IMG/VR virus record: IMGVR_UViG_3300029827_000002
Coordinates: 1 to 58,698 of that record
DNA: 58,698 nt
Strand: one strand, 5' to 3'
Origin: a virus
Shown: positions 9,500 to 41,228 of the stretch, piece by piece
Layout: each line of letters begins with the position of its first letter
Numbering within the stretch: the first letter of the stretch is position 1
Position numbers and translations under genes: made by a program
Notes under the pieces: generated by a model
The model's input: only the letters and a program-made list of their open reading frames with translations
What the model was told of the DNA's origin: nothing
The model's database searches: none

Positions 9500-9518
9500 T
9501 GAAATGGAGGAATGAAAA

Positions 9519-12624: not shown

Positions 12625-12625
12625 T

Positions 12626-12982: not shown

Positions 12983-12987
12983 TGTTT

Positions 12988-21574: not shown

Positions 21575-22576
21575 TTAGCTTGCAGCTTCACCATACACAG
21601 AGAATGGATATCTTGTTTCTTCAATTTCATTTAGTCTATTGATTGGGTTTGGAACTTGCCATCCTAATCTCATAGATGCTCTTAAAGCAATCATATTTTG
21701 TTGGGCTAAATTAAACACAATTTCTTTTGTTGTCGGGTCTTGAATAACTGCTTCGGTCAGAATTGTCCACATGATATCTTTTCTAATTGCATACATTAAT
21801 TGTTTCCATTCTCCTGCAATTATTAATGATCTACTTGGAATTATAGCTCCATTTCTAGGAAATACGCAAGGCTCGCCATCAAGATAATAAGTTGTACTAC
21901 CTTGAACACCTTCTTTGTTTAAAGATTTAAAGATTGGGATTCCATCTGTGGCTCTTAATGATCTAAATTTTGATCTCATTGTCATACTACAAACATGACC
22001 GTCAACCATGAATCCATCTTCTTCAACTTTAGAGATTAAACCGCCATCCCCCATAATATCTTCGTATACATCACTTTTATTGGTATTTGGATTTATGATA
22101 CTTCCTTTAGCTACAAAATTTCCGGCAGCAGTTGCCGCAGTAACTATATTGTCAGGCCATATTCTTGGGGCATTAATTCCATAAAATACTGCTTGATCAA
22201 AAGCAATGCCGAAAGCTTCTATTAATTTAGGCTTACTTTCTGCCCAAATATCATAATCGGCATCATCTAGTACAGCTATTGGAATCGGAACAATTACGTT
22301 TAATTCCTCTGCGTCAATGTATTTGTTTTCCCACATCAATTTTGAAAGTCTTTTCCATTGTTCATCTTCTGTTTTAGAAGATGGCCCAGGATTTGAAAAA
22401 TATGCAGTCGGCAAGACTGATAAACAAGGAATTCTTTTTTGAGCCCTTGACATATTTGGACCTCTTCTTGCATATGTCATAACCGCAGAATTCTCGGGAA
22501 CACTTTGAACTATTTCACGTTGTACATCTTCAGGCATAAGAGCTTCGACACCAGCTCTTGGAATATAAGTTGCCAT
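21575..22576 (-). CDS. Major capsid protein (HK97 fold)
   Basis: 333 residues starting ATYIPRAGVEALMPEDVQRE with ENSAVMTYARRGPNMS, a typical phage_capsid family N-arm. Also present are IPIPIAVLDDADYDIWAESK-type spine-helix residues and LRASMRLGWQVPNPINRLNE at the C-terminus. It follows the scaffold gene and is the right length for a mature form without an N-terminal scaffold domain. Confidence 0.9.
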   Translation of the reverse strand: MATYIPRAGVEALMPEDVQREIVQSVPENSAVMTYARRGPNMSRAQKRIPCLSVLPTAYFSNPGPSSKTEDEQWKRLSKLMWENKYIDAEELNVIVPIPIAVLDDADYDIWAESKPKLIEAFGIAFDQAVFYGINAPRIWPDNIVTAATAAGNFVAKGSIINPNTNKSDVYEDIMGDGGLISKVEEDGFMVDGHVCSMTMRSKFRSLRATDGIPIFKSLNKEGVQGSTTYYLDGEPCVFPRNGAIIPSRSLIIAGEWKQLMYAIRKDIMWTILTEAVIQDPTTKEIVFNLAQQNMIALRASMRLGWQVPNPINRLNEIEETRYPFSVYGEAAS

Positions 22577-22606: not shown

Positions 22607-23308
22607 TTAATCCATATATCCAGCTTTTCTTCTTATCAAATAATTCATATCTACACTATTTCCATTTGGTTTATTTGATCCAGCGTTTTGATCATCTCCA
22701 CCAGATTGAGGGTCTTGATTATTACTATCATTATTACCAGAATCTAATAAATAAGGTTTGTCTTTAATTAATGCTTTCAATGAATTTTCAATACCAAGAA
22801 CTTTTCCATTATCGTCAATGGATACATCATCTTTATCCATTAAAATAAAAGCAGCTTCAGGGTCTCTAATTTTTAATTTACTTGCAATGCTAATGACTTT
22901 AGATTGAATTAAAAACTGATTTGATCTGTTTGTTGCTTCAATCAATTTTTTGTCACTTTCTTCTTTTTCTAATTTAAGTCTTTCAAGCTCACTTAAACTT
23001 TCTTTTTTCTTTTCGGCTTCAAGTTCTTCTCTAGTTTTCTTAATAGCTTTATTAATTCTGTTTTTCAAAAGATTGTCAAATTCTGCTTGTGACTTAAAAA
23101 TAACTTGTCCACTTGAATTATTTCCATCTTCTCCATTTCCGTCATTTCCATTTTCACTATTTGAATTTTCACCATTTGTGTTATCTTGATTTTCGCTATT
23201 TTCATTTTCTCCATTTTCACCTTCTGGAATGCTCAACACTGGAACTATTGGAAATAAAAAACTAGTAAACAATATTTTCTTAAATCTTTTGAATTTTCTT
23301 AAAATCAT
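22607..23308 (-). CDS. Capsid scaffolding protein with N-terminal leader
   Basis: 233 residues. A basic-hydrophobic leader (RFKKILFTSFLFPIVPVLSI) is followed by a 40-residue Asn/Glu/Gly low-complexity linker. A long coiled coil (about 75-145) comes next, then a helical tail (SLKALIKDKPYLLDSG). The coiled coil and position before the capsid gene match gp20/DUF4355-like scaffolds. The leader resembles that of the major tail protein. No protease gene was found. Confidence 0.85.
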   Translation of the reverse strand: MILRKFKRFKKILFTSFLFPIVPVLSIPEGENGENENSENQDNTNGENSNSENGNDGNGEDGNNSSGQVIFKSQAEFDNLLKNRINKAIKKTREELEAEKKKESLSELERLKLEKEESDKKLIEATNRSNQFLIQSKVISIASKLKIRDPEAAFILMDKDDVSIDDNGKVLGIENSLKALIKDKPYLLDSGNNDSNNQDPQSGGDDQNAGSNKPNGNSVDMNYLIRRKAGYMD

Positions 23309-26215: not shown

Positions 26216-26482
26216 TTATTTATATAATTTGTCAATATATATCTGTTTATATTGTCTTATTATATTATTATTAGGAGGTAGATAAATAATTAATAAATCT
26301 ATTTGTTTAGAATTTAGATTAAAAAATTCCAAAGGTCTTCCTCCCTTAGTACCTTTGCCATATCTTAATATACAAGAATTCATATTACCAAATTGTGTAA
26401 AATCATTTTTATATTTTTTTAAATATCTTATTATTGCTTTATGAGATATTTTTAATTTCTCTGATAATTCAATACTAGTCAT
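26216..26482 (-). CDS. Rha/antirepressor-like HTH protein
   Basis: 88 residues beginning TSIELSEKLKISHKAIIRYL, the winged-HTH start of Rha-type phage regulators, followed by GRPLEFFNLNSKQIDLLIIY, the usual second strand-helix element. It has an ATG that overlaps the stop of the transferase gene, so it ends the glycan operon. It could control late genes, or it may be a passenger. Confidence 0.72.
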   Translation of the reverse strand: MTSIELSEKLKISHKAIIRYLKKYKNDFTQFGNMNSCILRYGKGTKGGRPLEFFNLNSKQIDLLIIYLPPNNNIIRQYKQIYIDKLYK

Positions 26483-27612
26483 TATATTTTTAACCTGTTA
26501 GCTAATTCTAATATTTGTTTTGCTGCGGTTTTACCTGCTTTACCCCTTAAGTCGGTTGGATAAATTTCTTCTATAAATTCTTTTTCTAAATCTTTCATTC
26601 CATCAGATAAAGCAATATCAAATAATTTAATCATGTTTTTTATATCTTTTGCATGATAACCAATTTTTTTAGAATAAATTTGATATTCAAAATTTGCTGG
26701 ATCAGATTTAAAATGATTCATTGTATCTTTTGCACAAATCCAATCAGGAAAAATTACAGGCTTGCCTAATATCCATGCTTCGTATAAAGTTGATCCTGCA
26801 TCTGCGATAACAATATCGGCTTCTAATAATTCATTTGTTGTCGGTAATTGTTTCTTTTTATTATGCATTTTACTTGTTGGATGTAAGCTTGTTACTAAAT
26901 CATAATCTTTTGGAATTTGATCTAAATATCTTAAAAATGCTGGATAACTTGATCTCCCTTTATTTTTCGAATGATATCCATGAGTAGGAGCCCATAGAAT
27001 TTTAGGTTTTAAATTCTTTTTAATTGAATTCTTATTAATATTAATTAATGGATCTAATTTAGTATATCCACAGATAAATATTTCTCCCTTATATCCAGTA
27101 TTTCTCATTCTATTTTCCCATGCTGGGCCCGAAACAAAAGCATATTTATAATCCTTAATTTTATCTCCTTTCCAATAATTTTTATCACCTATTCCATGTG
27201 AAAAGAAAATATCATTTGGGCCAACTGGAGCTTTACCCTGTTCGTTAATTCTAGCAGAATTAAAAAATCTAATATTCATTCTTGTTAGTGGAATTTTTGA
27301 ATATCCAATATCTTTTTTGGGAAGATGTTTCATTATTGGATTTGATAAAGCCTCTATTGCATGAATGTAGGCTTCGCCTGCATGTTGGCTCATGTTATCG
27401 TAAACAAAATTTATTTTGTTTCCTTTTTTAAGACCATGTCTTTTCATATATGCTTGATTATCGAGCTTTCCTACCCTTAATCCTCTATTACTTCTTATTT
27501 CTCTAAATATCTCGTTTGAATCGACTCTAATCGTAATCTCTTCAAAAGGTTCAAATCTATATTTCCCAATTATTATTGTATAATGAACTCTATTTAAAAT
27601 ATTTACTAACAT
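26482..27612 (-). CDS. TagB/TagF-like polyol-phosphate (CDP-glycerol/ribitol) transferase
   Basis: 376 residues. The segments KILWAPTHGYHSKN and DIVIADAGSTLYEAW with GKPVIF match the GT-B CDP-glycerol glycerophosphotransferase family (TagB/TagF: ILYAPTxR..., DxxixDySSxxfdxxlxxkPxif). It would transfer glycerol- or ribitol-phosphate from its CDP form to an acceptor glycan or teichoic acid. The adjacent CDP-ribitol-type synthesis genes (27612, 28258) strengthen ribitol as the donor. GGAGG ribosome site. Confidence 0.78.
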   Translation of the reverse strand: MLVNILNRVHYTIIIGKYRFEPFEEITIRVDSNEIFREIRSNRGLRVGKLDNQAYMKRHGLKKGNKINFVYDNMSQHAGEAYIHAIEALSNPIMKHLPKKDIGYSKIPLTRMNIRFFNSARINEQGKAPVGPNDIFFSHGIGDKNYWKGDKIKDYKYAFVSGPAWENRMRNTGYKGEIFICGYTKLDPLININKNSIKKNLKPKILWAPTHGYHSKNKGRSSYPAFLRYLDQIPKDYDLVTSLHPTSKMHNKKKQLPTTNELLEADIVIADAGSTLYEAWILGKPVIFPDWICAKDTMNHFKSDPANFEYQIYSKKIGYHAKDIKNMIKLFDIALSDGMKDLEKEFIEEIYPTDLRGKAGKTAAKQILELANRLKI

Positions 27613-28265
27613 TATTTTTTTACCTCCAATATTTGTCCATTAAGCAAATTATCACTTTCTATCAAATTACAAATAAATTTGCCTATTTCATGAGGTTGAA
27701 GCATATTTTTAAAATCATCATCGGGCTCTAATTCATGTCTCATATCTGTATTGACTGCCCCAGGGCAAACAATATATATTTTTATTCCATATGGTTTTAA
27801 TTCTTCTGACATTGATAAACTAAAATTAATTAAAGCTGCTTTTGTTGCTGCATAAATTGACCTACCTGGCCTTGCTCCTAAGCCAGCAGTTGAAGCAATA
27901 TTAATTATTTTACCTTCTATCTTTTTATTAATGCAAAATTTTACATATTGTTTAGTACAATTAAAAACTGCATTAAAATTAACATTAAATTGTTTATTAA
28001 TTGATTTAATACTAGTTTCAAAAATACTTCCTTGTTCTGCAATTCCAGCATTATTAATAAGTGCAATTGGATAATATTTCTTATCTTCTTTATTAAAATC
28101 ATCAAAATTTTTTATAAATTCTTCAAATTTTTTAAAATTTGTTATATCAAAATCGCTCCATCTTGAAATTGGATAATAAAGATTTTCTTTGCTTCTATAA
28201 CACCATTCTTTAGCAATTGCAGCCCCAATTCCTCTACTACTACCAGTTATTATAATATTACTCAA
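27612..28265 (-). CDS. Short-chain dehydrogenase (Bcs1/TarJ-like context)
   Basis: A 217-residue SDR: NAD(P) motif TGSSRGIG at 7-14, NNAG, the catalytic S-Y-K triad in INIASTAGLG..YAATKAAL, and PGAVNTDM. It starts with TTG after GGAGGG and overlaps the cytidylyltransferase. In Haemophilus Bcs1 an IspD-like domain is fused to an SDR reductase that makes ribitol 5-phosphate from ribulose 5-phosphate. The separate gene pair here may do the same. Confidence 0.85.
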   Translation of the reverse strand: MSNIIITGSSRGIGAAIAKEWCYRSKENLYYPISRWSDFDITNFKKFEEFIKNFDDFNKEDKKYYPIALINNAGIAEQGSIFETSIKSINKQFNVNFNAVFNCTKQYVKFCINKKIEGKIINIASTAGLGARPGRSIYAATKAALINFSLSMSEELKPYGIKIYIVCPGAVNTDMRHELEPDDDFKNMLQPHEIGKFICNLIESDNLLNGQILEVKK

Positions 28266-28941
28266 TTTTATTACCCTCCTTATAATTTAAGATTGCCTCG
28301 GCAATTTTAAGATCAATAGGATAAGTAATTTTAATATTTTCTCTTTCACCATGAAAAATTATTTTTCTTTTAAAAGGAATTTCGCCAGATATTTCTTGAA
28401 ACTTATAAATTAAGTCCATATCATCCGTAGAATTTTGAGAAATCATATTTGTATGGACTTTATAAAGCTTTTGATTATCATATTTTTGTGGCATTTGAAC
28501 ACACCCAAAATCATTTCTATCATAAGAATTTCCTAATATATCAATTACACTGGCACTTGATAAGTCTATAGGTACTACACAATCGCCATCAGCTTCTATA
28601 ACTTTTTTTATTAAATTTATCGACATAAAAGGTCTTACAGCTTCACAAATTAGCAAATTTTTTGTCTTGACATGTTCTAAGCCATTATAAACTGATTGCT
28701 GTCTAGTTTCCCCAGCTTCACATATATATCTATTTTCAATATTATATTCATTTAAAAATCTTATTACATTGGAATTATCTAAATCACTTGGAATTATAAT
28801 TGTTCCAATATCTTCAATCTTTCTTAAGGTTTCTAATCCATATATAAAAATAGGTTTTCCTTTTAGTCTAGCAAATTGTTTAGGATATCCTAATTCAGCT
28901 CTTTTTCCCTTTCCTCCTGTAAGATAGATTACATCAATCAT
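28258..28941 (-). CDS. IspD/TarI-family cytidylyltransferase
   Basis: 227 residues with TGGKGKRAELGYPKQFARLK (nucleotide-binding loop), CEAGETRQQSVYNGLEHV, CVQMPQ and ENIKITYPIDLKIAEAIL, all typical of the IspD/TarI family. It would form CDP-ribitol or a similar CDP-polyol from CTP. Neighbours (SDR and TagB/F-like transferase) argue for a polyol-phosphate role rather than isoprenoid synthesis. Confidence 0.85.
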   Translation of the reverse strand: MIDVIYLTGGKGKRAELGYPKQFARLKGKPIFIYGLETLRKIEDIGTIIIPSDLDNSNVIRFLNEYNIENRYICEAGETRQQSVYNGLEHVKTKNLLICEAVRPFMSINLIKKVIEADGDCVVPIDLSSASVIDILGNSYDRNDFGCVQMPQKYDNQKLYKVHTNMISQNSTDDMDLIYKFQEISGEIPFKRKIIFHGERENIKITYPIDLKIAEAILNYKEGNKIE

Positions 28942-28945
28942 ATTT

Positions 28946-29065
28946 TTACTCCTTTTCTTTTTTCCAAAATTTTTCTATTAATTCCTTATTATCAATTAAT
29001 ACTTGATATAAAGATGATTCTAAAATAGATATAATTTTATATTCTATGCCACCAATTTTAATCAT
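28946..29065 (-). CDS. Possible small protein, 39 aa
   Basis: Starts at ATG 29065, overlapping the previous stop (ATGA), and ends before the cytidylyltransferase gene. The product starts MIKIGGIEYKIISI. The AAGGAG for the next gene lies in its last codons. No motif; it could be a coupling peptide. Confidence 0.45.
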   Translation of the reverse strand: MIKIGGIEYKIISILESSLYQVLIDNKELIEKFWKKEKE

Positions 29066-29895
29066 AATTCTTGTAATTTTTCCTTCCATAAATCTATTAT
29101 TTGATTATCAATAATTATTCTTTTATCATTTTCAAAAACATTAAGTAAAAATTTAATTTGTTTTTTATAATCATGTGGAACTTTTGGTGTTTTTCTTTTT
29201 TGTCCGTCTTTTCTTATTAATGTTTTATTAAAATTATCCCATTCTAAATAATCAGGAATAAAATAACTTTTGTGATATTCACCAGAATAAAAATCACAGC
29301 CTAATATTCTTAATGATTTAATATTAAATTCTAATAAATGCATAATCGCAATTGTAGACATATTTGGTTCAGTTCCATCAAGTTTTATCCTTAAGTCATT
29401 TACAAAAAAATCAAAGACAGTATTCAAAGTTATTCCTTTTGTCTTTTCTGCCATAACATATTTTCTATTTAATAAAACAAATCGATTTAATGCTCTTTTT
29501 TCTTTTTCATTGCCATATACAGGGTCACGTTTAGCAACAATCCATTTTATTTTATCTCTATCTAATAGTTTAATCCTACCTGTATTATATCTATTTGCAG
29601 CCCATTTCAAGGATCGCATAATGGCTCCCGTATGATATAATACATCTGTTCTATTTCCGATATCTTCATGTATGAGTGAATAATCTTCATGTAATGGATT
29701 TATTGGAAATGTATTATTAAGTCTTACAACAATATCATAATTATTAATTTCCTCTCCTTGTTTTGATCCTTCTAAAATATTACTAGGCCCAACTATAATA
29801 ATATTTTTTCCTTTTAAATAATTTGAATAAAAGAAAGCATGTTTAAAATAATTAATTGGTCTTACACGTTTTGTTACTATTTTTCTTCTTGCCAT
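29062..29895 (-). CDS. GT29-like sialyltransferase
   Basis: 277 residues. Residues about 30-62 (KNIIIVGPSNILEGSKQGEE, then DIVVRLNN) mimic the L-sialylmotif of GT29 (VVGNSGxLxxSxxGxxIDxxDxViRxN). DIGNRTDVLYH (78-88) follows as in the family. Residues 175-203 (PNMSTIAIMHLLEFN..ILGCDFY) resemble the S-motif. GT29 enzymes move sialic acid from CMP-sialic acid. Together with the neighbouring NeuB- and NeuA-like genes, it is likely to use a CMP-nonulosonic acid. It could act on a phage or host glycan. No transmembrane anchor is visible. Confidence 0.7.
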   Translation of the reverse strand: MARRKIVTKRVRPINYFKHAFFYSNYLKGKNIIIVGPSNILEGSKQGEEINNYDIVVRLNNTFPINPLHEDYSLIHEDIGNRTDVLYHTGAIMRSLKWAANRYNTGRIKLLDRDKIKWIVAKRDPVYGNEKEKRALNRFVLLNRKYVMAEKTKGITLNTVFDFFVNDLRIKLDGTEPNMSTIAIMHLLEFNIKSLRILGCDFYSGEYHKSYFIPDYLEWDNFNKTLIRKDGQKRKTPKVPHDYKKQIKFLLNVFENDKRIIIDNQIIDLWKEKLQEL

Positions 29896-29905
29896 AATAA
29901 TTCTC

Positions 29906-30589
29906 CTAATCTTTTATAATTCTTATAATTTCAAAAACTTCGGCATATTCTTTTAAAATAATACTTCCATTTATACTTGCTTCATTAACAATTTTGTCAA
30001 TACTTCTTGGATGAGGATTTTCTTTAATTTCATCTTTATACATTTTTAAAGCCGCAATTTTTTGATCTAAAATATCCTTAGATATATTATTAATAAAATT
30101 AGGCTTAAATTTTTGTAAGCTCGGAGCTTGCCATTCTGTAGATGATAAAGTTTTAAAAGAATAAATTTCTTTTATTTGATTATTACATGGTCTTGCGGCT
30201 GTTATTGTAGATGTAAAAGTTAGTCTATGATCTATATTTAAATCACTGTAATTATGAGTATAAATAATATTTGGTTTAATAGAAAATAACCATGATTCAA
30301 TGATTTTTATAATTTCTAATATTGAAATTGTATCAAACTTTTGATCTGGAAGATTTGCAAAATAAATGTTATAATTTAAAAATTTTGCGACTTCTTCAGA
30401 TATTTTTCTTAATTGAAGAATTTCTTTATTTATATTTGTATTATCATTTTTATATCTTGAAGTAATACCAGTACTTAAAATTAATACTGAGACTCTATCA
30501 CCATTTTTTATATGTTTTATAAGCGTTCCACCTACACCAATTAATTCATCATCTGGATGCGCCACAATTGCTATTACATTATTTTTCAT
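29906..30589 (-). CDS. PIG-L/LmbE-type deacetylase
   Basis: 227 residues. The Zn motif AHPDDE sits at 10-15 (His11, Asp14), with a THNYSDLNIDHR loop ending at His121, the classic PIG-L fold. It would remove an N-acetyl group from a sugar (nucleotide). Next to an N-formyltransferase, a de-acetylate-then-formylate sequence is plausible. It overlaps the formyltransferase gene by 11 bases, which indicates co-translation. Confidence 0.88.
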   Translation of the reverse strand: MKNNVIAIVAHPDDELIGVGGTLIKHIKNGDRVSVLILSTGITSRYKNDNTNINKEILQLRKISEEVAKFLNYNIYFANLPDQKFDTISILEIIKIIESWLFSIKPNIIYTHNYSDLNIDHRLTFTSTITAARPCNNQIKEIYSFKTLSSTEWQAPSLQKFKPNFINNISKDILDQKIAALKMYKDEIKENPHPRSIDKIVNEASINGSIILKEYAEVFEIIRIIKD

Positions 30590-31256
30590 TTTTTATCGTC
30601 CTTTCAATTTTTACATCTGCAATTATATGATCATTTTTTAAACTTGCTCTTGAAAATTCAATTTTATATTCACCAAATTCAATATATGCTTTTGGATATC
30701 CTTCACCATCAAGCATTCTAATAAAATCAAATATCTTATTTAAATTAAATTCTTTTTCAATTCTATTATTATAATTTCTTGTATAACTTGTAACTTCTCC
30801 AATTTGATCTATAGGTTTTAATTGTTCATTGATTATTTTAGGAATCATTTTATTAAAAATAATATTTGAAATTCTAATTAATATCTCATCACAAGTTCCA
30901 TTTAAACAAAGATTTTCCTTTAGATAAATAGGTCCAGAATCATAATCTTTAATTATCTTAATTGCAGATATTTTAGTATGACTTATATTATCTAATATTT
31001 GATTTTGAATTGGACTGCCACCTCTGCCATAAGGCAAATCCGTACAATGAAACAATATACAATTAAAATTCTCATAAACTTCTTTTGGAATAAACCATGA
31101 CCAATGAATAAAAAACACATAATCAGGTCTGAAGTTAACTAAAGTTTCTAATAAATAATCTTTTTTTGTAATTATTTGTAATTCTTTGTATGTATAATCT
31201 AAAGATTTAGCTTTTTCTATATGACATTTTTTTATTGTTGCTATTAATATTTTCAT
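30579..31256 (-). CDS. Sugar N-formyltransferase
   Basis: 225 residues with the Fmt-like core: NCILFHCTDLPYGRGGSPIQ (residues about 65-84, catalytic His) and DYDSGPIYL (Asp106). It probably uses N10-formyl-tetrahydrofolate to formylate an amino sugar, as do formyltransferases found in some bacterial nonulosonic-acid clusters. The C-terminus LDGEGYPKAYIEFGEYKIEF is the OB-like extension. Confidence 0.82.
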   Translation of the reverse strand: MKILIATIKKCHIEKAKSLDYTYKELQIITKKDYLLETLVNFRPDYVFFIHWSWFIPKEVYENFNCILFHCTDLPYGRGGSPIQNQILDNISHTKISAIKIIKDYDSGPIYLKENLCLNGTCDEILIRISNIIFNKMIPKIINEQLKPIDQIGEVTSYTRNYNNRIEKEFNLNKIFDFIRMLDGEGYPKAYIEFGEYKIEFSRASLKNDHIIADVKIERTIKNEK

Positions 31257-31259
31257 AAT

Positions 31260-31820
31260 TTATTTATTTCTTTCTTCAAAATAATAATGATTGAAATTAA
31301 AATATAACGAATTAAAAAAAGATCCATTAAAAAACTTTCTACTTGGTAAAATTGTGCTATAGCCGTTATATTTTTTAATCATTTTTTCCCAAAATTCTAT
31401 ATTAGGATTACATTTATAACATTCACCATAAATATTTTGTAATCTCATATTTTTAAAACCTTCTTTTAAAACTAAACTTAATACTTTCGATCCATATCCT
31501 TTGCTAATATATTTGGGGCCAATAGTTAAAGCTATTTCGGAATTTCCATTTTCCCACTGAATTTTATCAAGACCAGTATATCCAATAAAAGTATCTATAT
31601 CTTTGTCTCTTTCTCCTTCAGCCTCTTCTTTAAAAATTCCCCAATATCTGGCATTAATACTTCGATTGTTTATAACATTTTTCAAAAAATCTATCTGCAT
31701 ATCACTTGTAAGTAAATACGGTGTTCTATAAATACCTTTTTTGGTATTTTCATTTCTCCATATTCTTAATTTTTCTAAATTTTCAAAATTTAAAACATCT
31801 AAATAAATATTATCTTTCAT
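31260..31820 (-). CDS. GNAT acetyltransferase (PseH/RimL-like)
   Basis: 186 residues; GNAT signature with AcCoA loop ISKGYGSKVLSLVLK and a NIYGECYKCNPNIEFWEKMI end (RimL style). In pseudaminic-type pathways PseH acetylates the 4-amino group of the UDP-sugar made by PseB and PseC. The operon position supports the same step here. It overlaps the CMP-sugar synthetase-like gene. Confidence 0.8.
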   Translation of the reverse strand: MKDNIYLDVLNFENLEKLRIWRNENTKKGIYRTPYLLTSDMQIDFLKNVINNRSINARYWGIFKEEAEGERDKDIDTFIGYTGLDKIQWENGNSEIALTIGPKYISKGYGSKVLSLVLKEGFKNMRLQNIYGECYKCNPNIEFWEKMIKKYNGYSTILPSRKFFNGSFFNSLYFNFNHYYFEERNK

Positions 31821-32475
31821 ATGTTCTCCTTATTTTTAATATTTTTATGATATCTTCTACTCTTTTAAAGTCTTCTATTGTATCAACACTCCATTTATAA
31901 TCAAATTTAAAAACAGAGTTAACCTCATAAATTTTAAATTTCTTAGGATTATTTTTTATAAATCTTGTTACATGTTCCCTATCTTCTTTATCTTCAGCAA
32001 CATTGTTAATATATGCTAAAACGGATGACTTCATGATTTCTACATCAAGTCCGCTAGGTAATCCATTTTTACCTCTATTATGTGTAAAATCAGCATTATT
32101 TAATAAATGTTTCTGTATAACTTCATCAATAACTTTAGGATAAAACCCTAACATTGGACAATCACTTGTTATTCTTACAACATTTGTTATATTTTCTTGT
32201 GTAATATTTTGTATATAATTTAATGCTGCATAATACCTATTTAATACATCTTCTTCATTTCCTTCATGAGAATAACAGAAACATTTATCTGAATATAATT
32301 TTGAAAAAACACTATTATCTGAAAATGGATAAATTATTCCTGTAAAATGACTTAATTTACTTTGTTTTGCCCCTTCAATTGTATAACTGGTCATTGGATG
32401 ACCAGCCATACTTTTTATACATTTTCTTTGAAGTCTATTTGATTTTAATCTGGCTTGAATTAAAGTTATTATCAA
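31810..32475 (-). CDS. CMP-sugar synthetase-like (NeuA/SpsF family)
   Basis: 221 residues: IQARLKSNRLQRKCIKSMAG (CTP-binding loop), EDVLNRYYAA, VRITSDCPM, DREHVT and YKWSVDT, which match the SpsF/PseF/NeuA group of the CTP_transf_3 family. It would activate a nonulosonic acid as its CMP form for the GT29-like enzyme. It ends one base before the synthase-like gene's stop codon, so they are one transcript. Confidence 0.82.
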   Translation of the reverse strand: MIITLIQARLKSNRLQRKCIKSMAGHPMTSYTIEGAKQSKLSHFTGIIYPFSDNSVFSKLYSDKCFCYSHEGNEEDVLNRYYAALNYIQNITQENITNVVRITSDCPMLGFYPKVIDEVIQKHLLNNADFTHNRGKNGLPSGLDVEIMKSSVLAYINNVAEDKEDREHVTRFIKNNPKKFKIYEVNSVFKFDYKWSVDTIEDFKRVEDIIKILKIRRTYER

Positions 32476-33135
32476 CTACAACACTTCCTTTAATATATCT
32501 GGTGTTCTTGCAAATTCCCCAGCATCTAAACCTGTCGAAGTTTTTAACTTGTAATGCCATTCGATTATTTTAGGTTTAAATCTATTAAACAGTGCAAAAT
32601 TATTTGTATGATCTGAAATATTATTCCCAATTTTAATATCTAATTTTAAATATTCTTGAACACTAGCAGGATATTGACTTATACACCAAAATTCTTCAAG
32701 TTCTTTTGGAACTTTTACGCAGCCTAACCCAGATATATTTTTATTTCCGAATTTAATTGTTAAATCATTTGTTTTTGAAATATATACTGGAATTTCTTCA
32801 GGTATAAAATCTATTAAATAATCTAATTCTCTTCTATTTGCTATTTTCACGAATGGAATATCATAACCAAGTAAAAATTCTAATGATGGTCTATCAAAAA
32901 TAGAAGCGGTTACTTTATATCCTAATTGATTTCCATATTCATAAGCATAATTAAATGATTCTTCAGTTAAAGGAATATTCGCTCCACAAGCTTTGAATAA
33001 TTGCCATTTTATAATTATTTCATACTTGCCGCTGTCAATAGCCTTCAATTCATCATACATTCTTTTTATTATTCTTTCGTCGTTTCTACATGTATTTCCA
33101 GACCCAAAATCCAATATTATTGTTTTATTTTTCAT
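32476..33135 (-). CDS. Short NeuB/PseI-like nonulosonic acid synthase
   Basis: 219 residues from ATG 33135 (GAGGTG upstream; the frame starts at 33150). Features: SIFDRPSLEFLLG and VKIANRRELDYL (NeuB TPFDxxSvdfL and KIASxEltn), CISQYPASVQEYL, NISDHT and GLDAGEFARTPD. Usual NeuB proteins are about 340 residues and have a C-terminal SAF domain; that domain is absent here. It may be a minimal enzyme or depend on a partner. It lies between the CMP-sugar synthetase and the Acb2/Tad1-like gene. Confidence 0.82.
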   Translation of the reverse strand: MKNKTIILDFGSGNTCRNDERIIKRMYDELKAIDSGKYEIIIKWQLFKACGANIPLTEESFNYAYEYGNQLGYKVTASIFDRPSLEFLLGYDIPFVKIANRRELDYLIDFIPEEIPVYISKTNDLTIKFGNKNISGLGCVKVPKELEEFWCISQYPASVQEYLKLDIKIGNNISDHTNNFALFNRFKPKIIEWHYKLKTSTGLDAGEFARTPDILKEVL

Positions 33136-33685
33136 AAGTGCCAAGAACACCTCTTTCTTTTCTTTTATTTGTTCTCGATCTTAAAGCTACAATAGCAGCT
33201 TTTAATCCATCTAAAGCAATATTATTTTCATTACACTTAAGTTCTGAGTTTTGAAAAGTTTCTAAAACATCAATACAAATTCCGATAATATCAGGAAGGA
33301 AAACACCATTTAAATTAGTTTTATTTATAGGTCCATTTTGAAAATGTATTCCACATAAAAGATTATTATTTTCAACACTTTTAATTAAATAATTTTTCGA
33401 AGAATTATTCTCATTTTCATCTTTTTCAATATATGTATGTTCTTCAGTCAATAATTCATTCCTTAATCTTGTTAAGTTCCCATTGATCTTTTTATAAGCT
33501 TTAAATGGCTCTTCTGGACTCCATGATAAGTAATCATCTGAATATCTAACAGAATATCCTTTTTTATTATCTGGAAGACCAGTATTGATTTTTTTATCTC
33601 CATATTTAAAATCGGCATATTCTCCATAATTCATTTCACAAGCTTCAATTTCTTTTGTTCCAAAATATTTTTCAAATTTTTTCAT
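33125..33685 (-). CDS. Acb2/Tad1-like hairpin domain protein (candidate anti-defence)
   Basis: 186 residues in two parts. N-terminus FEKYFGTKEIEACEMNYGEY and VRYSDDYLSWSPEEPFKAY resemble the KYIGTKxixAxPMtrgeYn...GYlVxYxDGyxSWsP cap found on phage proteins, often before Tad2-like domains. C-terminus HFQNGPINKTNLNGVFLPD, ALDGLKAAIVALRSRT and KERGVLGTY resembles a helical-hairpin family I associate with Acb2/Tad1 sponges (recall, unverified). Such proteins bind signal nucleotides of CBASS or Thoeris. It sits inside the glycan operon. Confidence 0.62.
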   Translation of the reverse strand: MKKFEKYFGTKEIEACEMNYGEYADFKYGDKKINTGLPDNKKGYSVRYSDDYLSWSPEEPFKAYKKINGNLTRLRNELLTEEHTYIEKDENENNSSKNYLIKSVENNNLLCGIHFQNGPINKTNLNGVFLPDIIGICIDVLETFQNSELKCNENNIALDGLKAAIVALRSRTNKRKERGVLGTYEK

Positions 33686-33716
33686 AGTTTAAATCATCCT
33701 TTTTTATTTATTTTTT

Positions 33717-34055
33717 TTACTTCTTTTCAAAAAAATTATTTAATAATTTTCTTATTTTTATTAATTCATTCAAATTATTTTCCATATAATCAAGAGTAAC
33801 AATAAACATATCTATTATTAATTCTTGCGTATTACTAGTATAAAGAAAATTTTCTCCACCTTTATCGTTATTTTTTAAACCTATTCTATAGCTTTTATTA
33901 TTAAATTTACATAATTCCGAAAACTCATGAACACTACAAACATTTAAGGTACTTTTATTCTTTTTTAAATAATTATTTAATTTTTCTTTTAGTAGATATT
34001 CACGAATTTCTTTATCTTTTGGCTTTTCTTCAATAAATCTAAATATTTTAAACAT
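33717..34055 (-). CDS. Hypothetical protein, 112 aa
   Basis: Lys/Asn-rich, mostly helical protein with GLKNNDKGGENFLYT in the middle and a C-terminal helix (YMENNLNELIKIRKLL). It is one of several small genes inserted among the sugar genes. AAAGGAATAA precedes the ATG. No family recognised. Confidence 0.65.
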   Translation of the reverse strand: MFKIFRFIEEKPKDKEIREYLLKEKLNNYLKKNKSTLNVCSVHEFSELCKFNNKSYRIGLKNNDKGGENFLYTSNTQELIIDMFIVTLDYMENNLNELIKIRKLLNNFFEKK

Positions 34056-34073
34056 TGTTTTTATTATTCCTTT

Positions 34074-34244
34074 CTATTCTTGACAATCAACGCAATAATT
34101 TTCCCATTCATCTTTATCATTCTTTTCAACTGTCCAATTGTTTTCTTTTGCATAATTTAAAGCGGCTTCAAAAGTTGAAAAACTTTCATTCTCACTGCAT
34201 CCATCACAAATTATATACCAATTTCCTTTAATTTTATTAATCAT
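34074..34244 (-). CDS. Small zinc-ribbon-like protein, 56 aa
   Basis: Starts MINKIKGNWYIICDGCSEN and ends with YCVDCQE: two CxxC pairs. ATG 34244 follows GAGGCAAAAATA and overlaps the preceding gene's stop. Probably metal-binding; function unknown. Confidence 0.6.
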   Translation of the reverse strand: MINKIKGNWYIICDGCSENESFSTFEAALNYAKENNWTVEKNDKDEWENYCVDCQE

Positions 34245-34632
34245 TATTTTTGCCTCTATAGACTAAAGATTTCCAATCATATTCTAAATCAAAGAATCTA
34301 TTTAAAAATTCTCTAGCTAATTCATTTGATTTTTCATGATCAATATTACAATTATCCATAAAAAAACATGAAATATTTGAATGCCACCCCAAAAGTAAAT
34401 CGTCATCTTCGGATTCAAGCCAATATTTCATTTGTGATAATGTGAATTTAAATTCACAATTTCTAAATTCTGGTTTATCCCTATTTTCAATTGTTGATAA
34501 ACACAATTCAATTCCATTATACATACCAATCATATAATCGCTTTTTAAACTTTCAGCCTGGTTTTTCTTTGTTTCTTTTAATTTTCTTAAATTTTCCTTG
34601 AAATTTATTATTTCAAATTTTTCATTATTCAT
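34237..34632 (-). CDS. Hypothetical protein, 131 aa
   Basis: Soluble protein with a KENLRKLKETKKNQAESLKS helix, GIELCLSTIENRD and DDLLLGWHSNISC. It overlaps the aminotransferase by four bases (ATGA), so it is coupled. No sugar-enzyme motif; it may be accessory. Confidence 0.65.
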   Translation of the reverse strand: MNNEKFEIINFKENLRKLKETKKNQAESLKSDYMIGMYNGIELCLSTIENRDKPEFRNCEFKFTLSQMKYWLESEDDDLLLGWHSNISCFFMDNCNIDHEKSNELAREFLNRFFDLEYDWKSLVYRGKNND

Positions 34633-35732
34633 TTTAAATTTAAACCTTCTTTCATAAATTCATTAATACAATTAATGATATATTCTTGTTGTTCAAATAA
34701 TAAGTTATAATACAATGGAATACTTATTATTTGATCGGCTACTTTTTCAGTATTAGGACATTGTTTTGAATAATCAATTTTGTCCAATGGATCATAATAA
34801 AATGAATTTTTATATATTGGAGGGAAATGTATAACACATTGAATTTCCCTTTTTTTCATGTAATTAATAAATTTATTTCTATTTTTTCTATTCTTAACTT
34901 TAATTACAAACAAATGATAAACATGAATTCTTCCCTTTAATTGCTTTAATTTTTCACATTTTAACTTATCAATATATTTATCAGCCAACATATATCTAAA
35001 TGTTTGAAATTGACAATGCTTTGTTTTAAATTGACTTAATACAAGTGCTGCATTTATTTCAGACATTCGATAATTATAGCCTAAAAGCTCCATCATACCT
35101 TCTTCATTTCTTCCATGATTTCTAAATAATTTAACTCTATAATCTAATATATAATCATTTGTTAATAAAGCTCCACCTTCACCAGATGTTATATGTTTTG
35201 CTGGATGAAACGAATAACAAACAATATCAGGAATTGTATTATCAGCGATTCTATTAATTCCGCCAAAAGAATGACACGAATCACTAATAAAATATAATTG
35301 GTTATTATCGCAAATTTCTTTTATTGCTTTATAATCAGCTAATTGACCTGCATAGTCCATGGAAATTATTGCTTTGGTTTTATTTGTGATTAATTTTTTT
35401 ATACTTTCAGGATCAATTAAAATAGTATCTGGATCGATATCCGCAAAAACAGGTGTTCCTCCACAATAACTTACACAATTTGCAGTTGCTACAAAAGAAA
35501 TTGAAGGAATAATTACTTCATCCCCAGGTTTAATTTTTATTGCCATACAAGCAGCATGTAAGGCAGATGTACCACTATTAAGAGTTTTACAAAATTTATA
35601 ACCTGTATAGTTACTCAATTCATTCTCAAATTCTTTTGTAATTTCTCCTTGTGTTATATTATCGCTTGTTAATACTTTATTTACCGCTTTTATATCATGC
35701 ATATCAATAAAATGCTTTGCATAATTAATCAT
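34629..35732 (-). CDS. DegT/DnrJ/EryC1 aminotransferase (PseC-like)
   Basis: 367 residues. LNSGTSALHAACMAIKIKPG, GDEVIIPSISFVATAN, the SDSCHSFGG region and SFHPAKHITSGEGGAL with PLP lysine K179 match the PseC group. It would transaminate the 4-keto-6-deoxy-UDP-sugar made by the dehydratase at 36209 (4-amino product). HFPPIYKNSFY near the C-terminus fits the family. It is directly after the coiled-coil pair. Confidence 0.9.
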   Translation of the reverse strand: MINYAKHFIDMHDIKAVNKVLTSDNITQGEITKEFENELSNYTGYKFCKTLNSGTSALHAACMAIKIKPGDEVIIPSISFVATANCVSYCGGTPVFADIDPDTILIDPESIKKLITNKTKAIISMDYAGQLADYKAIKEICDNNQLYFISDSCHSFGGINRIADNTIPDIVCYSFHPAKHITSGEGGALLTNDYILDYRVKLFRNHGRNEEGMMELLGYNYRMSEINAALVLSQFKTKHCQFQTFRYMLADKYIDKLKCEKLKQLKGRIHVYHLFVIKVKNRKNRNKFINYMKKREIQCVIHFPPIYKNSFYYDPLDKIDYSKQCPNTEKVADQIISIPLYYNLLFEQQEYIINCINEFMKEGLNLK

Positions 35733-35964
35733 GATTAAGCAAGTTCTCCTTTTTTCTTTTTACTTGTGCTTCTTTTGCTATACTAAATTGTTCTTTTAAT
35801 TGGTTTAATTCTTCTTGTAAATAACTTTTTTCAAGTTTTAATTGTTTAATATTCTCAATCAATAATTCATTAGTAATTTTTAAATTTTCATTTTCTTTTG
35901 AAATCATTACAATATGATCAATTTCTAATTCTTCATATGTCATTTTTTTACAATTTTCATTCAT
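35725..35964 (-). CDS. Coiled-coil protein, second copy of a tandem duplication
   Basis: 79 residues, almost all coiled coil (LKITNELLIENIKQLKLEKS and on). It is about 90% like the 83-residue protein at 35961. The duplicated DNA spans 35741-35988. The end differs from the other copy: it ends LLNHD rather than LSIEEMRKLL. It overlaps the aminotransferase gene by eight bases. Confidence 0.75.
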   Translation of the reverse strand: MNENCKKMTYEELEIDHIVMISKENENLKITNELLIENIKQLKLEKSYLQEELNQLKEQFSIAKEAQVKRKKENLLNHD

Positions 35965-36236
35965 AATAATTTCCTCATTTCTTCAATAGATAAGTTCTCC
36001 TTTTTTCTTTCTACTTGTGCTTCTTTTGCTTTGCTAAATTGTTCTTTTAATTGATTTAATTCTTCTTGCAAATAACTTTTTTCAAGTTTTAATTGTTTAA
36101 TATTCTCAATCAATAATTCATTAGTAATTTTTAAATTTTCATTTTCTTTTGACATTGCAATATGATCAATTTGTAATTCTTCATATGTCATTTTTCTATA
36201 ATTTTCATTCATAATAATTTCCTCATTTCTTCAATA
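35741..36236. repeat. Tandem direct duplication of about 248 bp
   Basis: The segment 35741-35988 is repeated with about 90% identity at 35992-36236. The repeat includes the last ~9 codons of the upstream gene (IEEMRKLL), a ribosome site and the coiled-coil gene. The upper copy therefore ends like the 4,6-dehydratase gene does. Confidence 0.85.
35961..36212 (-). CDS. Coiled-coil protein, first copy of a tandem duplication
   Basis: 83 residues, coiled coil as in the gene at 35725. Its C-terminus (LSIEEMRKLL) equals that of the 4,6-dehydratase just upstream. The duplication therefore fused the end of the dehydratase gene to this gene's tail. ATG overlaps the dehydratase stop. Confidence 0.75.
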   Translation of the reverse strand: MNENYRKMTYEELQIDHIAMSKENENLKITNELLIENIKQLKLEKSYLQEELNQLKEQFSKAKEAQVERKKENLSIEEMRKLL

Positions 36237-37159
36237 CTCAAAATATTATTCTCATTATTACTTGCATATGTAAATTGATTATGATTTATCCATAATTCTG
36301 GTAGTTTTCCATAATAAAGCTTGTAAAATGTATCGTAAATCACAATATTTCTTGATTCTTCATGACTAACTAATGTTTCATTGATTTTTTCGCCTTTTCT
36401 TAATCCTACAATTTTTATTTCAGCATCTTCCTTTATGGCTTTTATTAAATCAACTATCTTTAAAGTAGGTAATTTAGGAATAAATATTTCTTGACCTTCC
36501 ATAATTTCTAAAGAAGATAAAACAAATTTTGCGGCATTATCTATAGTTGTCCAAAACCTAGTCATTTCATTATCAGTTAAAGGAAATTTGCCACCTTCTT
36601 TGGCTATCTTCTTGAAAAAAGGAATAACTGATCCTCTAGAGCCAATAACATTTCCATATCTTACAATCGAAAATATAGTTTCATTATCGCCAGAATAATT
36701 ATTTCCATCAATAAACATTTTCTCCATACATGCTTTTGTACAACCATATAAATTTATAGGATTTACGGCTTTATCTGTAGAAATTGCCAATACTTTTTTA
36801 ACTTTTCTATCAATAGCAGCATCAATTATATTCGCTGATCCTATAACATTCGTTTTGACAGCTTCAAAAGGGTTATATTCGCATGAAGGAACATGCTTTT
36901 GAGCGGCTGTATGTATAACATAATCAATTTCATTAAATGCTCTATACAATCGATCTTTATCTCTTATATCACCAATAAAAAAAGATAATTTTGGATTATT
37001 TTTAAATTCTTTTTTCATTTCTGATTGTTTATATTCATCCCTAGAATAAATATAAATTTTTTTGATATGTTTATCACTATTTAATAATTGTTTTGTAAGT
37101 TCTTTTCCAAGAGTTCCTGTTCCACCTGTTATTAGAATTTTTTTATAAAACTTATTCAT
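36209..37159 (-). CDS. UDP-GlcNAc 4,6-dehydratase (PseB/FlaA1-like SDR)
   Basis: 316 residues. NAD motif GGTGTLG at 12-18, AAQKHVPSCEYNPFEAVKTN, ISTDKAVNPINLYGCTK (catalytic Asp, Tyr and Lys), RYGNVIGSRGSVIPFF and TDNEMTRFW. These match PseB-type inverting dehydratases that begin pseudaminic acid synthesis; the CapD/FlaA1 family is the alternative. It is the first of the sugar genes in the operon and has an AAAGGAG site. The C-terminal SIEEMRKLL is duplicated in the next gene. Confidence 0.88.
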   Translation of the reverse strand: MNKFYKKILITGGTGTLGKELTKQLLNSDKHIKKIYIYSRDEYKQSEMKKEFKNNPKLSFFIGDIRDKDRLYRAFNEIDYVIHTAAQKHVPSCEYNPFEAVKTNVIGSANIIDAAIDRKVKKVLAISTDKAVNPINLYGCTKACMEKMFIDGNNYSGDNETIFSIVRYGNVIGSRGSVIPFFKKIAKEGGKFPLTDNEMTRFWTTIDNAAKFVLSSLEIMEGQEIFIPKLPTLKIVDLIKAIKEDAEIKIVGLRKGEKINETLVSHEESRNIVIYDTFYKLYYGKLPELWINHNQFTYASNNENNILSIEEMRKLL

Positions 37160-37990: not shown

Positions 37991-39178
37991 TTACTCCTTT
38001 CTAATGTGCCTCCCAATTTGTTCCCTAACATAATTTCTATTAAGGAATTTATTATCTTTTAAATGTTCTCTTTGTTCTTTTTGCCAATATTTAACTTTAT
38101 TATCGGCAATATTTTTAACATTATTATCAAGACTTCCAACTGATCTTCTTTTCCAATTGCGAATATTTCTTTCAATTTGTCTTTGTCTTAACTGAGCATT
38201 ATAAGATATTTTTTGGGCTTCATTATATCCATATTGATCAATTAAATCTTGTTCTGCTTTGTCTACTCTTGGCGGCAATGGTTCTTTACCTTCAAACCAT
38301 AGACTTACATCATGCTTACAATTAGGGTGAAATAATCCTTGAGTTTCTGCATCATCTATTGATTCATAAACAGGATGGCGTTCTATGCTTAAAGTTATAC
38401 CTTCGTAAGGAGTGCATAATTCACAAGCTCTAAAATGACTTGATACAACGACTAAAGTATATCCTCCTTCAGCATATCTATTTAAATTAGCCTGTAAAGA
38501 ACATCTTCCTGAGACAGTACGACCGACCATTTCGCAATAAGTATCTATTGAATATTTTGCTCCATTTTTATAAGTTATAGTTTGAATTCCTTGTTTTGCT
38601 AGTTGATCCATCATTTCTTGAGAGTATTTTATCCTTGTGTAAATATCACCTTCTTTGAAATACTTCTCACCTGCTTGTATCGCTGCATTTCGATAAATAT
38701 CCTCAGCTTTTCTTAGTATTTGAATTGGTTGATTATCTAAGTTGTAATATGCTGCATCTCTAAAAGTTTTATAGAAAGGTACATGTTCAGATATATTTTT
38801 AAATAATGATAAAGTCTCGCTACTTAAGGCTGGAATTGCGATTGGTGGAGGACTTTCAATTAAAAAAGATCCATTTGTAATCTTCTTTATAATTGATGCA
38901 GATAAATTATTATATCTTAAATCTGCTTTTGCATGGTTTATTCCTGCGATATATGCTTTTGCTAAGTCTTTATTTGCCCAACTTTTCCAATCTTTATTGA
39001 ATGTTTTGGCAATTGTTGTTACTTCTGTAATATACGCTTTTTTATAATTAGTAACATTTGTTGGATCATTATTTATTTTTTCTAGTAATTTTTTTGTAGC
39101 AATCAGCATTCCAAAAACTACATTTTGAGCAGACAAATATAAATTTTTTCCATAATCTTCATATCTATCAATGTTCAT
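37991..39178 (-). CDS. Minor head protein (phage minor capsid protein 2-like)
   Basis: 395 residues with VVVSSHFRACELCTPYEGIT and LFHPNCKHDVSLW: the CxxC...H-N-C-x-H motif of SPP1 gp7-like minor capsid/head morphogenesis proteins. It is helical throughout and follows the portal gene by two genes. It would sit at the portal vertex and may be ejected with DNA. Confidence 0.85.
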   Translation of the reverse strand: MNIDRYEDYGKNLYLSAQNVVFGMLIATKKLLEKINNDPTNVTNYKKAYITEVTTIAKTFNKDWKSWANKDLAKAYIAGINHAKADLRYNNLSASIIKKITNGSFLIESPPPIAIPALSSETLSLFKNISEHVPFYKTFRDAAYYNLDNQPIQILRKAEDIYRNAAIQAGEKYFKEGDIYTRIKYSQEMMDQLAKQGIQTITYKNGAKYSIDTYCEMVGRTVSGRCSLQANLNRYAEGGYTLVVVSSHFRACELCTPYEGITLSIERHPVYESIDDAETQGLFHPNCKHDVSLWFEGKEPLPPRVDKAEQDLIDQYGYNEAQKISYNAQLRQRQIERNIRNWKRRSVGSLDNNVKNIADNKVKYWQKEQREHLKDNKFLNRNYVREQIGRHIRKE

Positions 39179-39715: not shown

Positions 39716-39742
39716 AGGTTTAAGAATTTTTTTCTTAAACCT
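39716..39742 (-). terminator. Possible terminator after the portal gene
   Basis: AGGTTTAAGAA and its complement form an 11-bp stem with a five-base loop overlapping the portal stop codon; TTGTCTTTTATTTG follows on the minus strand. Weak or partial. Confidence 0.4.
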
Positions 39743-41228
39743 CAGTTTTAATCATTTCCCCTGTAATTCCTTCATCTGCATTAATTTTGTCAACTTCTTC
39801 TTGTATTTTTTCATCTGTCCAATCTGGATGCTGTAATTTTACCTTCATAAAATTAGAAATAGCTTTTGCCTGATATAAATTTCTTATTACTTCAGATGTT
39901 TCTTTATTATCTGTCATGATTGAATCTTCTATTTCCAATGATATTGGTTGATTTTCATAATTTGAATATAATCCACTTGCTTTATCAATATTTTGGGCTT
40001 GTTGTAATAAACTTAAAATCGCAGGTTTGAAATATTTTTCTTTTTTTGATCTTGTTTTTTGAGACTTATTTTCTCTTATTTTTAAAGCGGTACCGCTTTG
40101 GGCATTTCCATATTCTCCTAAGCCGAATGTTTGCGGAGAATAACCACAATTTGAAATTATTTGCCACGTTAGCTCTGAACACGTTTTCATGTGTTCTTCA
40201 ACTCTAATATCAAATTGTACTTGTTCTATAGGTTTAACATTATTTTCAGACATTCTCCATTGGGTAAAATCCATTTTTACAAAAGACTTTTGAAATTTGC
40301 TAAAATTATTTATAAAGGTCGTTGTACCGTTCACATCTGATCTTGTCTTTTGTAGTAGTTCCTCATCAACAAATATTTGTGCCATTCCTAGTTCTATGTC
40401 ACGCATCCAACTAGTCCAAGCAAAATCTAATGAATCAAGTAAGGAAATATCGTCTGAATAATCATTGATTCCTAAAGGACTTCCTAAAACGAGTCTATTA
40501 GGTCGCATATTAGGTACATATACACACCCTAAACCATATACATTTTTATATTCAACTGGCTTTAAATTTAAATCTTCAGTTTCTTTAATACTATTAGGAT
40601 CAATTTCTTTGCCTACTTTTGTCGCTGTTCCAACGTTTAATTTATATTCGATTAAAAGAGAATTGCCACTTCTTCTTCTATTCTCAAATAATCTAAAGAC
40701 TTTCCCACTATCTGTCTTTTTAACTACTCTAAAAAACAAGATTTCCCATAGTCTACCTCTCCAAAAAGTAGGAATAAATTGCTTTGGATTCATTACATTA
40801 ATTAAAGGAACTCCTTCTAATTGTGCCTCTATGTCTAATTTTAATACACAACCTGAGATTGCTGCCGATATTTCCGCACTTTCTAATAAAATACTATTAA
40901 ATCCATTCTTTTCAATAATATCTTTTATTCTTTCCCCAGCAATTGTTTTTTGATCATATTTATAAATTGGACTTTCAGAAAACAATAAATCTGCCGAAGT
41001 GCTTGCGATATCACCAGCTAAAGGCATATGGACAATACCTTTTCTTTCTTCAGTTTCTAGTCTTGCCCAAAACTTTTCTTGAGCTGTCTCATTTCCCGAA
41101 GCTAATCTTGTATAAAATCTTAATAATTGTTCAGGATCTCCACTATACCAACTTGCCCATTCCTCATATTTTAAAAACCAATAGTCGCATTGATTAGGTG
41201 GAAAATTATCTTTTTCATTCAAAAACAT
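39735..41228 (-). CDS. Portal protein (SPP1-like)
   Basis: 497 residues; GDIASTSADLLFSESPIYKY, ISAAISGCVLKLDIEAQLEG and SPQTFGLGEYGNAQSGTALK match SPP1-type (Phage_prot_Gp6) portals. It has a strong GAAGGAG site and lies two genes after the large terminase. Confidence 0.9.
   Translation of the reverse strand: MFLNEKDNFPPNQCDYWFLKYEEWASWYSGDPEQLLRFYTRLASGNETAQEKFWARLETEERKGIVHMPLAGDIASTSADLLFSESPIYKYDQKTIAGERIKDIIEKNGFNSILLESAEISAAISGCVLKLDIEAQLEGVPLINVMNPKQFIPTFWRGRLWEILFFRVVKKTDSGKVFRLFENRRRSGNSLLIEYKLNVGTATKVGKEIDPNSIKETEDLNLKPVEYKNVYGLGCVYVPNMRPNRLVLGSPLGINDYSDDISLLDSLDFAWTSWMRDIELGMAQIFVDEELLQKTRSDVNGTTTFINNFSKFQKSFVKMDFTQWRMSENNVKPIEQVQFDIRVEEHMKTCSELTWQIISNCGYSPQTFGLGEYGNAQSGTALKIRENKSQKTRSKKEKYFKPAILSLLQQAQNIDKASGLYSNYENQPISLEIEDSIMTDNKETSEVIRNLYQAKAISNFMKVKLQHPDWTDEKIQEEVDKINADEGITGEMIKTEV

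Follow-up and report, generated by a model that had tools for sequence, protein, structure and literature searches.

A candidate virion-glycosylation locus with a virus-specific NeuB-type synthase among the head genes of uncultivated phages

We have analyzed a glycan gene cassette in an uncultivated phage, IMG/VR record IMGVR_UViG_3300029827_000002; the whole of this record (58,698 bases, about 25% GC) is termed the window. The cassette occupies positions 37159-26482, with all its genes on the minus strand, intact, and mostly overlapping or abutting. On balance we favor the view that it is a serotype-like locus within the head-assembly operon, by which the phage would decorate its own virion with polyol-phosphate and an N-acyl nonulosonic acid. 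Central to this proposal are a short NeuB-type synthase that appears, from a tree and genome searches, to form a virus-specific clade, and a constant trio of genes for a putative CDP-polyol pathway.

An earlier, sequence-only reading of the window had claimed PseB, PseC, GNAT, NeuB, cytidylyltransferase, formyltransferase, PIG-L and GT29 genes as one operon. All of these calls are confirmed, and the genes are co-directional and intact (Table 1). That reading did not recognize, however, that three further genes (28941-26482) are part of the cassette, and what it called a CMP-sugar synthetase, while indeed a cytidylyltransferase, is corrected here to the SpsF-like type. The gene order from 5′ to 3′ on the minus strand is PseB-like, PseC-like, several small open reading frames (ORFs), short NeuB, SpsF-like cytidylyltransferase, GNAT, formyltransferase, PIG-L, GT29, IspD-like, short-chain dehydrogenase (SDR) and TagF/TarL-like. 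Steps of the PseB, PseC, PseH, PseI and PseF types are all present, with PseC, GNAT and the cytidylyltransferase assigned at the superfamily level only. Because its score lies under the equivalog cut-off, the PseC-like protein is taken to be a relative and not an equivalog. A nonulosonic acid derived from UDP-GlcNAc, CMP-activated and possibly N-formylated, remains the simplest reading, as was first proposed.

The short NeuB and its relatives

The Pfam NeuB family matches the window protein with an E value of only 3e-4, just under the Pfam cut-off. A profile of its short relatives matches the structure of Campylobacter jejuni PseI (8h2c) with E = 4e-7. An AlphaFold2 model of the protein has a predicted local distance difference test score (pLDDT) of 89.4, and gives Z = 20.9 against NeuB (1xuu) over 201 residues, matching NeuB residues 17-261. 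Z scores range from 17.7 to 20.9 for NeuB, SpsE and PseI, compared with 15.4 for KDO8P synthase. Identification as a KDO8P or DAHP synthase was rejected on account of the lower structural scores, which are 15.4 or less for these enzymes. Profile and predicted structure thus bear out the NeuB/PseI-like call as far as the family is concerned, but the protein lacks about a third of canonical NeuB. It ends at the end of the barrel, equivalent to NeuB residue 261, with loss of the SAF domain and one loop, and no SAF domain was matched in any of 15 virus records. Sequences of about 290 amino acids without a full SAF domain exist among the canonical forms too (L035, L036 and L061; loci in other records are given L numbers). 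Its loss would therefore argue for a sub-family, and not against membership of the NeuB/PseI/SpsE family.

The residues K48, Q50, K102, S179-D-H-T182 (containing H181), E197, H199 and D209 are invariant in 29 short NeuB sequences. They map to positions of the canonical enzymes that we take to serve phosphoenolpyruvate (PEP), metal and general catalysis. From sequence and model together, we infer strongly that the short NeuB condenses a hexose with PEP to form a nonulosonic acid.

In a tree of 51 sequences, a branch with 100/100 support separates the 38 short forms from the rest, and all 38 lie on phage or phage-like contigs. We searched 791 bacterial genomes of two phyla (393 + 398). Canonical NeuBs there scored no more than 59 bits, in frames of at least 311 amino acids, and the only short forms were on the phage contigs L033 and L034 (321 and 338 bits). 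Across the genomes of 85,000 species, scanning returned four loci, comprising the same two phage contigs and two canonical forms. Two metagenome-assembled genomes (Spirochaetes and Eubacteriales) contain a short NeuB; in both the gene is on a phage contig, perhaps mis-binned. To our knowledge, none is known in giant viruses. These searches point to a virus-specific clade. The earlier claim that such a gene set is rare among phages holds to the extent that two versions of the short NeuB matched nothing among about 50,000 phage records; the set nevertheless recurs in dozens of uncultivated phages.

Constant and exchangeable parts of the cassette

The three genes added to the cassette encode an IspD/TarI-type cytidylyltransferase, an SDR and a protein of TagF/TarL fold. 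The profile of the IspD-like family matches IspD and ribitol-5-phosphate cytidylyltransferase structures about equally, and residues N96, S125, Y138 and K142 of the SDR are invariant in 18 sequences. An IspD-type domain with an SDR is the domain make-up of the CDP-ribitol synthase Bcs1, so that the product is likely to be CDP-ribitol. The model of the TagF/TarL-like protein gives Z = 17.6 against TarL with CDP-ribitol and 17.5 against TagF, compared with 15.3 for UDP-GlcNAc 2-epimerase, and its invariant HG and HPT motifs resemble the catalytic histidine motifs of TagF/TarL. Sequence searches of the PDB with the TagF/TarL-like profile gave no usable match; those with a single GT29, NeuB or TagF/TarL-like protein gave chance matches or none. 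All viral copies that include the N-terminal end have a module of about 60 residues there, doubled in several, which is lacking in a cellular relative; that it has a docking role is a guess. This cellular relative (L084, 1489-2382) lies near a gene for a collagen-like repeat protein, perhaps as part of a surface glycoprotein system.

The TagF/TarL-like profile finds 35 virus loci, nearly all of which contain the three genes together; in about 30 the trio comes directly or shortly before the scaffold and capsid genes. L020 has its TagF/TarL-like gene (12029-13380) divided between two frames. At L045 a tyrosine-recombinase-like gene (9159-9986) lies between the SDR and TagF/TarL-like genes, and may play a part in the exchange of modules.

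The middle of the cassette varies even among close relatives whose capsids are nearly the same. The window, L002, L005 and L006 carry formyltransferase, PIG-L and GT29; L003 and L004 have a Capsule_synth-type protein in place, and L010 has pyruvyltransferase, GT29 and methyltransferase. The formyltransferase is absent from the last three, with other genes in its place. More distant relatives contain no nonulosonate genes, and instead carry genes that, on inspection of the sequence, we name GT32-like, GT2-like or pyruvyltransferase-like. This pattern suggests that the CDP-polyol trio is the constant core, and the nonulosonate genes one of several interchangeable cargoes.

Which enzyme handles the nonulosonic acid? 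The GT29 family profile aligns to the sialylmotif L region of ST6Gal-I (4mps, residues 86-133) with E = 8e-5. The known GT29 and Maf transferases work with sialic acid or related nonulosonic acids, and Capsule_synth-type transferases (PF05159) include transferases of 3-deoxy-D-manno-octulosonic acid (Kdo). Among 27 informative loci, GT29 or Capsule_synth is found in all 18 that contain NeuB and in none of the nine that lack it, and the same is true of a cytidylyltransferase of the SpsF-like superfamily. Near-copies inflate these counts, and collapsing them by hand leaves about 11 versus 6 lineages, for which we calculate P ~8e-5. L015, outside this set, has both GT29 and Capsule_synth. In L061 and L062 the NeuB is an unrelated one of canonical type and the cytidylyltransferase differs as well, yet a GT29 again stands beside them. 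This restriction to loci with a NeuB, even an unrelated one, provides through co-occurrence the strongest support for a role of GT29 in handling the nonulosonic acid. The L061/L062 cytidylyltransferase is a NeuA-like enzyme with a C-terminal extension, their GT29 is fused to a GT32-like part, and the same constant trio adjoins. A GNAT gene accompanies the short NeuB in nearly all loci.

The short NeuB also occurs in a second arrangement. Fourteen loci carry a Maf-type protein, a class known as nonulosonate transferases of flagellin; the one scanned contains MptE-like and Maf N-terminal domains. In a tight subset (L009, L013, L016, L017, L018, L019, L021, L025 and L034) the order is nearly fixed, with short NeuB and PseB directly before Maf, and terminase and portal directly after; GNAT and formyltransferase are usually present as well. 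Six short-NeuB loci (L007, L024, L026, L027, L028 and L029) contain a gene that by inspection is PseA/WbpG-like, so that other phages may make nonulosonic acids with an acetamidino group. A recurring theme is thus the prediction, beside virion genes, of N-formyl or amidino nonulosonic acids. In the set of about 50,000 phage records, Maf and terminase queries had no match and the GT29 query one partial match; IspD and PseB matches are mostly unannotated and in our judgement look like host DNA. A related glycerophosphate transferase occurs in Thermobifida phage P1312, where no nonulosonate set is annotated nearby.

The ratio of nonsynonymous to synonymous substitution (dN/dS) lies between 0.09 and 0.42 for all cassette genes compared with their relatives, indicating that they are kept by purifying selection. 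Base identity to L006 differs along the cassette (89% for GT29 and PseB, 71% for NeuB), which shows that modules have recombined.

Proposed pathway, acceptor and alternative explanations

From their families, PseB, PseC and GNAT would convert UDP-GlcNAc into a UDP-2,4-diacylamino-trideoxyhexose. After removal of UDP, there are strong grounds to expect the short NeuB to use PEP to form the nonulosonic acid, which the SpsF-like enzyme would activate as the CMP-sugar. It is plausible that one N-acyl group is replaced through PIG-L and the formyltransferase to give an N-formyl derivative, and co-occurrence supports transfer of the nonulosonic acid by GT29. In parallel the constant trio would make a CDP-polyol (ribitol or similar) and transfer polyol-phosphate. 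As acceptor we most favor a head protein of the phage, modified in the cytoplasm; on it, polyol-phosphate would form the constant part and the nonulosonate a swappable epitope.

The removal of UDP is a gap in this scheme, to be filled by a PseG/SpsG-like hydrolase of the host or by an unrecognized enzyme. The PseG profile (TIGR03590) was above its cut-off in none of 16 records, and a hydrolase of this type was found neither in the window, where the sequence-only reading had already noticed its absence, nor in 14 other virus records. The profile gives only a weak match, to a GT-B motif in the TagF/TarL-like protein of virus records. That protein is unlikely to be the missing PseG, because loci devoid of nonulosonate genes contain the trio just as often. 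In Bacillus subtilis without spsG, legionaminic acid on the spores is reduced and not abolished (PMC7439481). Because some sugar remains, the SpsG step may be partly bypassed there; by analogy, supply of this step by the host is plausible.

The cassette lies within the head-gene operon, between the portal/MuF pair (41228-37991) and the scaffold/major capsid pair (23308-21575). Its proteins have no transmembrane segments, and there is no flippase, lipid-carrier transferase or polymerase among them. A search of the window record for tyrosine and serine recombinases found none, and 11 of the 13 records tested, including the window, lack an integrase; the phage is probably virulent. Soluble proteins, no export genes, no recombinase and a position among late head genes make a head protein the likeliest acceptor.

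Several points weigh against this proposal. The score of PseC leaves the stereochemistry open to Pse, Leg or another form, the virus records searched gave no PseG-type hydrolase, and the short NeuB is without the SAF domain, which closes the active site in known enzymes. The TagF/TarL-like model has a pLDDT of only 77, and its sequence matches known families weakly (TarB, E = 7e-7, far under the cut-off). The locus counts are not phylogenetically independent, and the position in the head operon could reflect an insertion hotspot and is not proof of the acceptor. The virion glycan is a prediction from the genes.

Could the cassette instead alter the envelope of the infected host, adding a polymer of teichoic-acid-like or capsular type that might, for instance, prevent superinfection or conceal the cells? 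The trio resembles enzymes of wall teichoic acid and of the Haemophilus influenzae b (Hib) capsule (PMC10299916), and Acinetobacter prophage enzymes modify the pseudaminic acid of the host capsule (PMC12053666). Yet the cassette contains no flippase, lipid-carrier transferase, polymerase or transmembrane protein, integrases are lacking from most records tested, and about 30 loci are placed among late head genes, so that we regard this explanation as unlikely. Less probable still is a different product of the short NeuB, namely a Kdo-like or other ulosonic acid derived from PEP, or its action on an unusual substrate. The lost SAF domain and loop are consistent with such a change, PseG would not be needed, in keeping with its absence from every virus record searched, and the PF05159 alternative to GT29 includes Kdo transferases. 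PseB, PseC-like and GNAT genes nevertheless accompany the short NeuB in most loci, the structural scores favor NeuB, PseI and SpsE over KDO8P synthase, and GT29 and Maf use sialic or related acids elsewhere. The mosaic sequence, the exchange of modules between close relatives and the TagF/TarL-like gene split in two frames at L020 and L069 might indicate a set of morons acquired from a bacterial polysaccharide locus, transient or in decay and now functionless. With dN/dS of 0.09-0.42 for all genes, retention across very divergent phages in a virus-only clade, and every window gene intact, we consider this very improbable.

We thus continue to favor decoration of the virion. More tentatively, the virus-only NeuB family, without SAF and without a phage PseG, could in tailed phages form together with a constant polyol-phosphate linker a viral serotype locus, in which a conserved primer on the capsid receives interchangeable terminal sugars through GT29, Kdo-transferase-like or Maf-type enzymes.

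Genome context and relation to known systems

Table 1. Cassette genes and flanking head genes of the window
Feature	Coordinates	Strand	Evidence
Portal protein, upstream anchor	39735..41228	-	phrog_533 E 9e-87
MuF-type minor head protein, upstream anchor	37991..39178	-	phrog_581 E 1e-52
PseB-like UDP-GlcNAc 4,6-dehydratase, 316 aa	36209..37159	-	TIGR03589 406.2 bits vs cut-off 407.75; PF02719 E 1e-100
PseC/SpsC-like DegT aminotransferase, 367 aa	34629..35732	-	TIGR03588 E 1e-95, 320.6 bits (cut-off 423.5); PF01041
Short NeuB/SpsE/PseI-type synthase, 224 aa	32476..33150	-	catalytic barrel without SAF; likely real start ATG near 33135
SpsF-like cytidylyltransferase, 221 aa; putative CMP-nonulosonate synthetase	31810..32475	-	PF02348 (CTP_transf_3) E 6e-17
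GNAT N-acetyltransferase; putative PseH/SpsD-like role	31260..31820	-	PF13302 (Acetyltransf_3) E 2e-10
Formyltransferase, variable module	30579..31256	-	PF21553 (Formyl_trans_C_2) E 8e-26; PF00551 E 0.003
PIG-L type N-deacetylase, variable module	29906..30589	-	PF02585 E 3e-21
GT29 sialyltransferase-type glycosyltransferase, variable module	29062..29895	-	PF00777 E 2e-9, 37.7 bits vs cut-off 23
IspD/TarI-type cytidylyltransferase, constant core	28258..28941	-	PF01128 E 2e-27
Short-chain dehydrogenase, constant core; putative polyol-phosphate-forming reductase	27612..28265	-	PF00106 E 5e-37
TagF/TarL-fold CDP-polyol phosphotransferase-like protein, constant core	26482..27612	-	fold match to TagF 3l7j E 8e-10
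Capsid scaffold, downstream anchor	22607..23308	-	PF06810 E 2e-11
Major capsid protein, downstream anchor, candidate acceptor	21575..22576	-	phrog_10 E 3e-26

A 31-bp repeat is common to both ends of the record, which is therefore probably a closed genome. The major capsid protein is 45% identical to that of a Clostridioides phage; relatives of the capsid and portal point to Gram-positive hosts, with the nearest capsids in phages of Bacillota. This is a weak indication, and the host is probably a low-GC bacterium of the Bacillota type. Between PseB and PseC lie two tandem, nearly identical coiled-coil-like small ORFs (36212-35961 and 35964-35725, minus strand), which by their sequence appear to be a recent duplication. 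A 186-amino-acid protein of phrog_2428 (function unknown; 33125-33685, minus strand) overlaps NeuB and recurs beside cassettes in L006, L009, L010, L045 and L063, distant phages included; we presume a likeness to small phage anti-defense (Acb2-like) proteins. A gene at 49498-50964 (minus strand) encodes LPD15 and DarA_C domains, and its product is a probable anti-restriction protein.

The legionaminic acid pathway of B. subtilis (SpsM/C/D/G/E/F; PMC7439481) has the same order of dehydratase, aminotransferase, acetyltransferase, NeuB-type and SpsF-type enzymes acting on UDP sugars. The phage differs in having no SpsG, a synthase without SAF, a location in a virus head operon and GT29 as transferase. 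The pseudaminic acid route of Campylobacter and Helicobacter (PseB-C-H-G-I-F) shares the PseB-like and PseC-like first steps and a PseI-like synthase, whereas the phage PseC-like protein is under the equivalog cut-off, PseG is lacking and the PseI-like enzyme is truncated. In Hib, where Bcs1 is the CDP-ribitol synthase of the capsule and acts with the CroT domain of Bcs3 (PMC10299916), and with staphylococcal TarL/TagF, cytidylyltransferase and reductase likewise feed a CDP-polyol transferase of TagF/TarL fold. The phage has two separate genes in place of the bifunctional Bcs1, and its transferase is stand-alone and soluble with the N-terminal module found in viral copies, the polyol being putative.

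Mycobacteriophages Che8, Corndog and Myrna are reported to glycosylate their own capsid or tail proteins with phage enzymes (cited in PMC12363180). The likeness lies in phage-encoded virion glycosylation, which is a prediction for the present phage; those phages are reported there with glycosyltransferases, whereas here pathways to the activated sugars are encoded too, as swappable modules. The nearest phage precedent is provided by the Acinetobacter prophage enzymes, which also connect phage genes with nonulosonic acids (PMC12053666, PMC6586298), but these modify a capsule sugar already made by the host, while here the route is largely phage-encoded. Megavirinae giant viruses have clade-specific synthesis of rare bacterial-type sugars for the particle surface (PMC10117803); unlike this phage, they infect eukaryotes. 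The literature searched, little of which was in subscription journals, contained no account of a nonulosonic acid operon encoded by a phage. Phage virion glycosylation, nonulosonate pathways and CDP-ribitol polymers are each already known, and the virus-only NeuB clade is the most distinctive part.

Phage particles are usually regarded as bare protein. The cassette raises the questions of what selects for changing virion glycans, whether a NeuB barrel can function without SAF, and which enzyme takes off the UDP. The short NeuB provides a marker gene for finding such phages. If our proposal is correct, whole lineages of uncultivated phages would synthesize acidic sugars of bacterial type, as well as polyol-phosphates, to put on their own particles, and the outer sugar would be exchanged much as capsule types are among bacteria.

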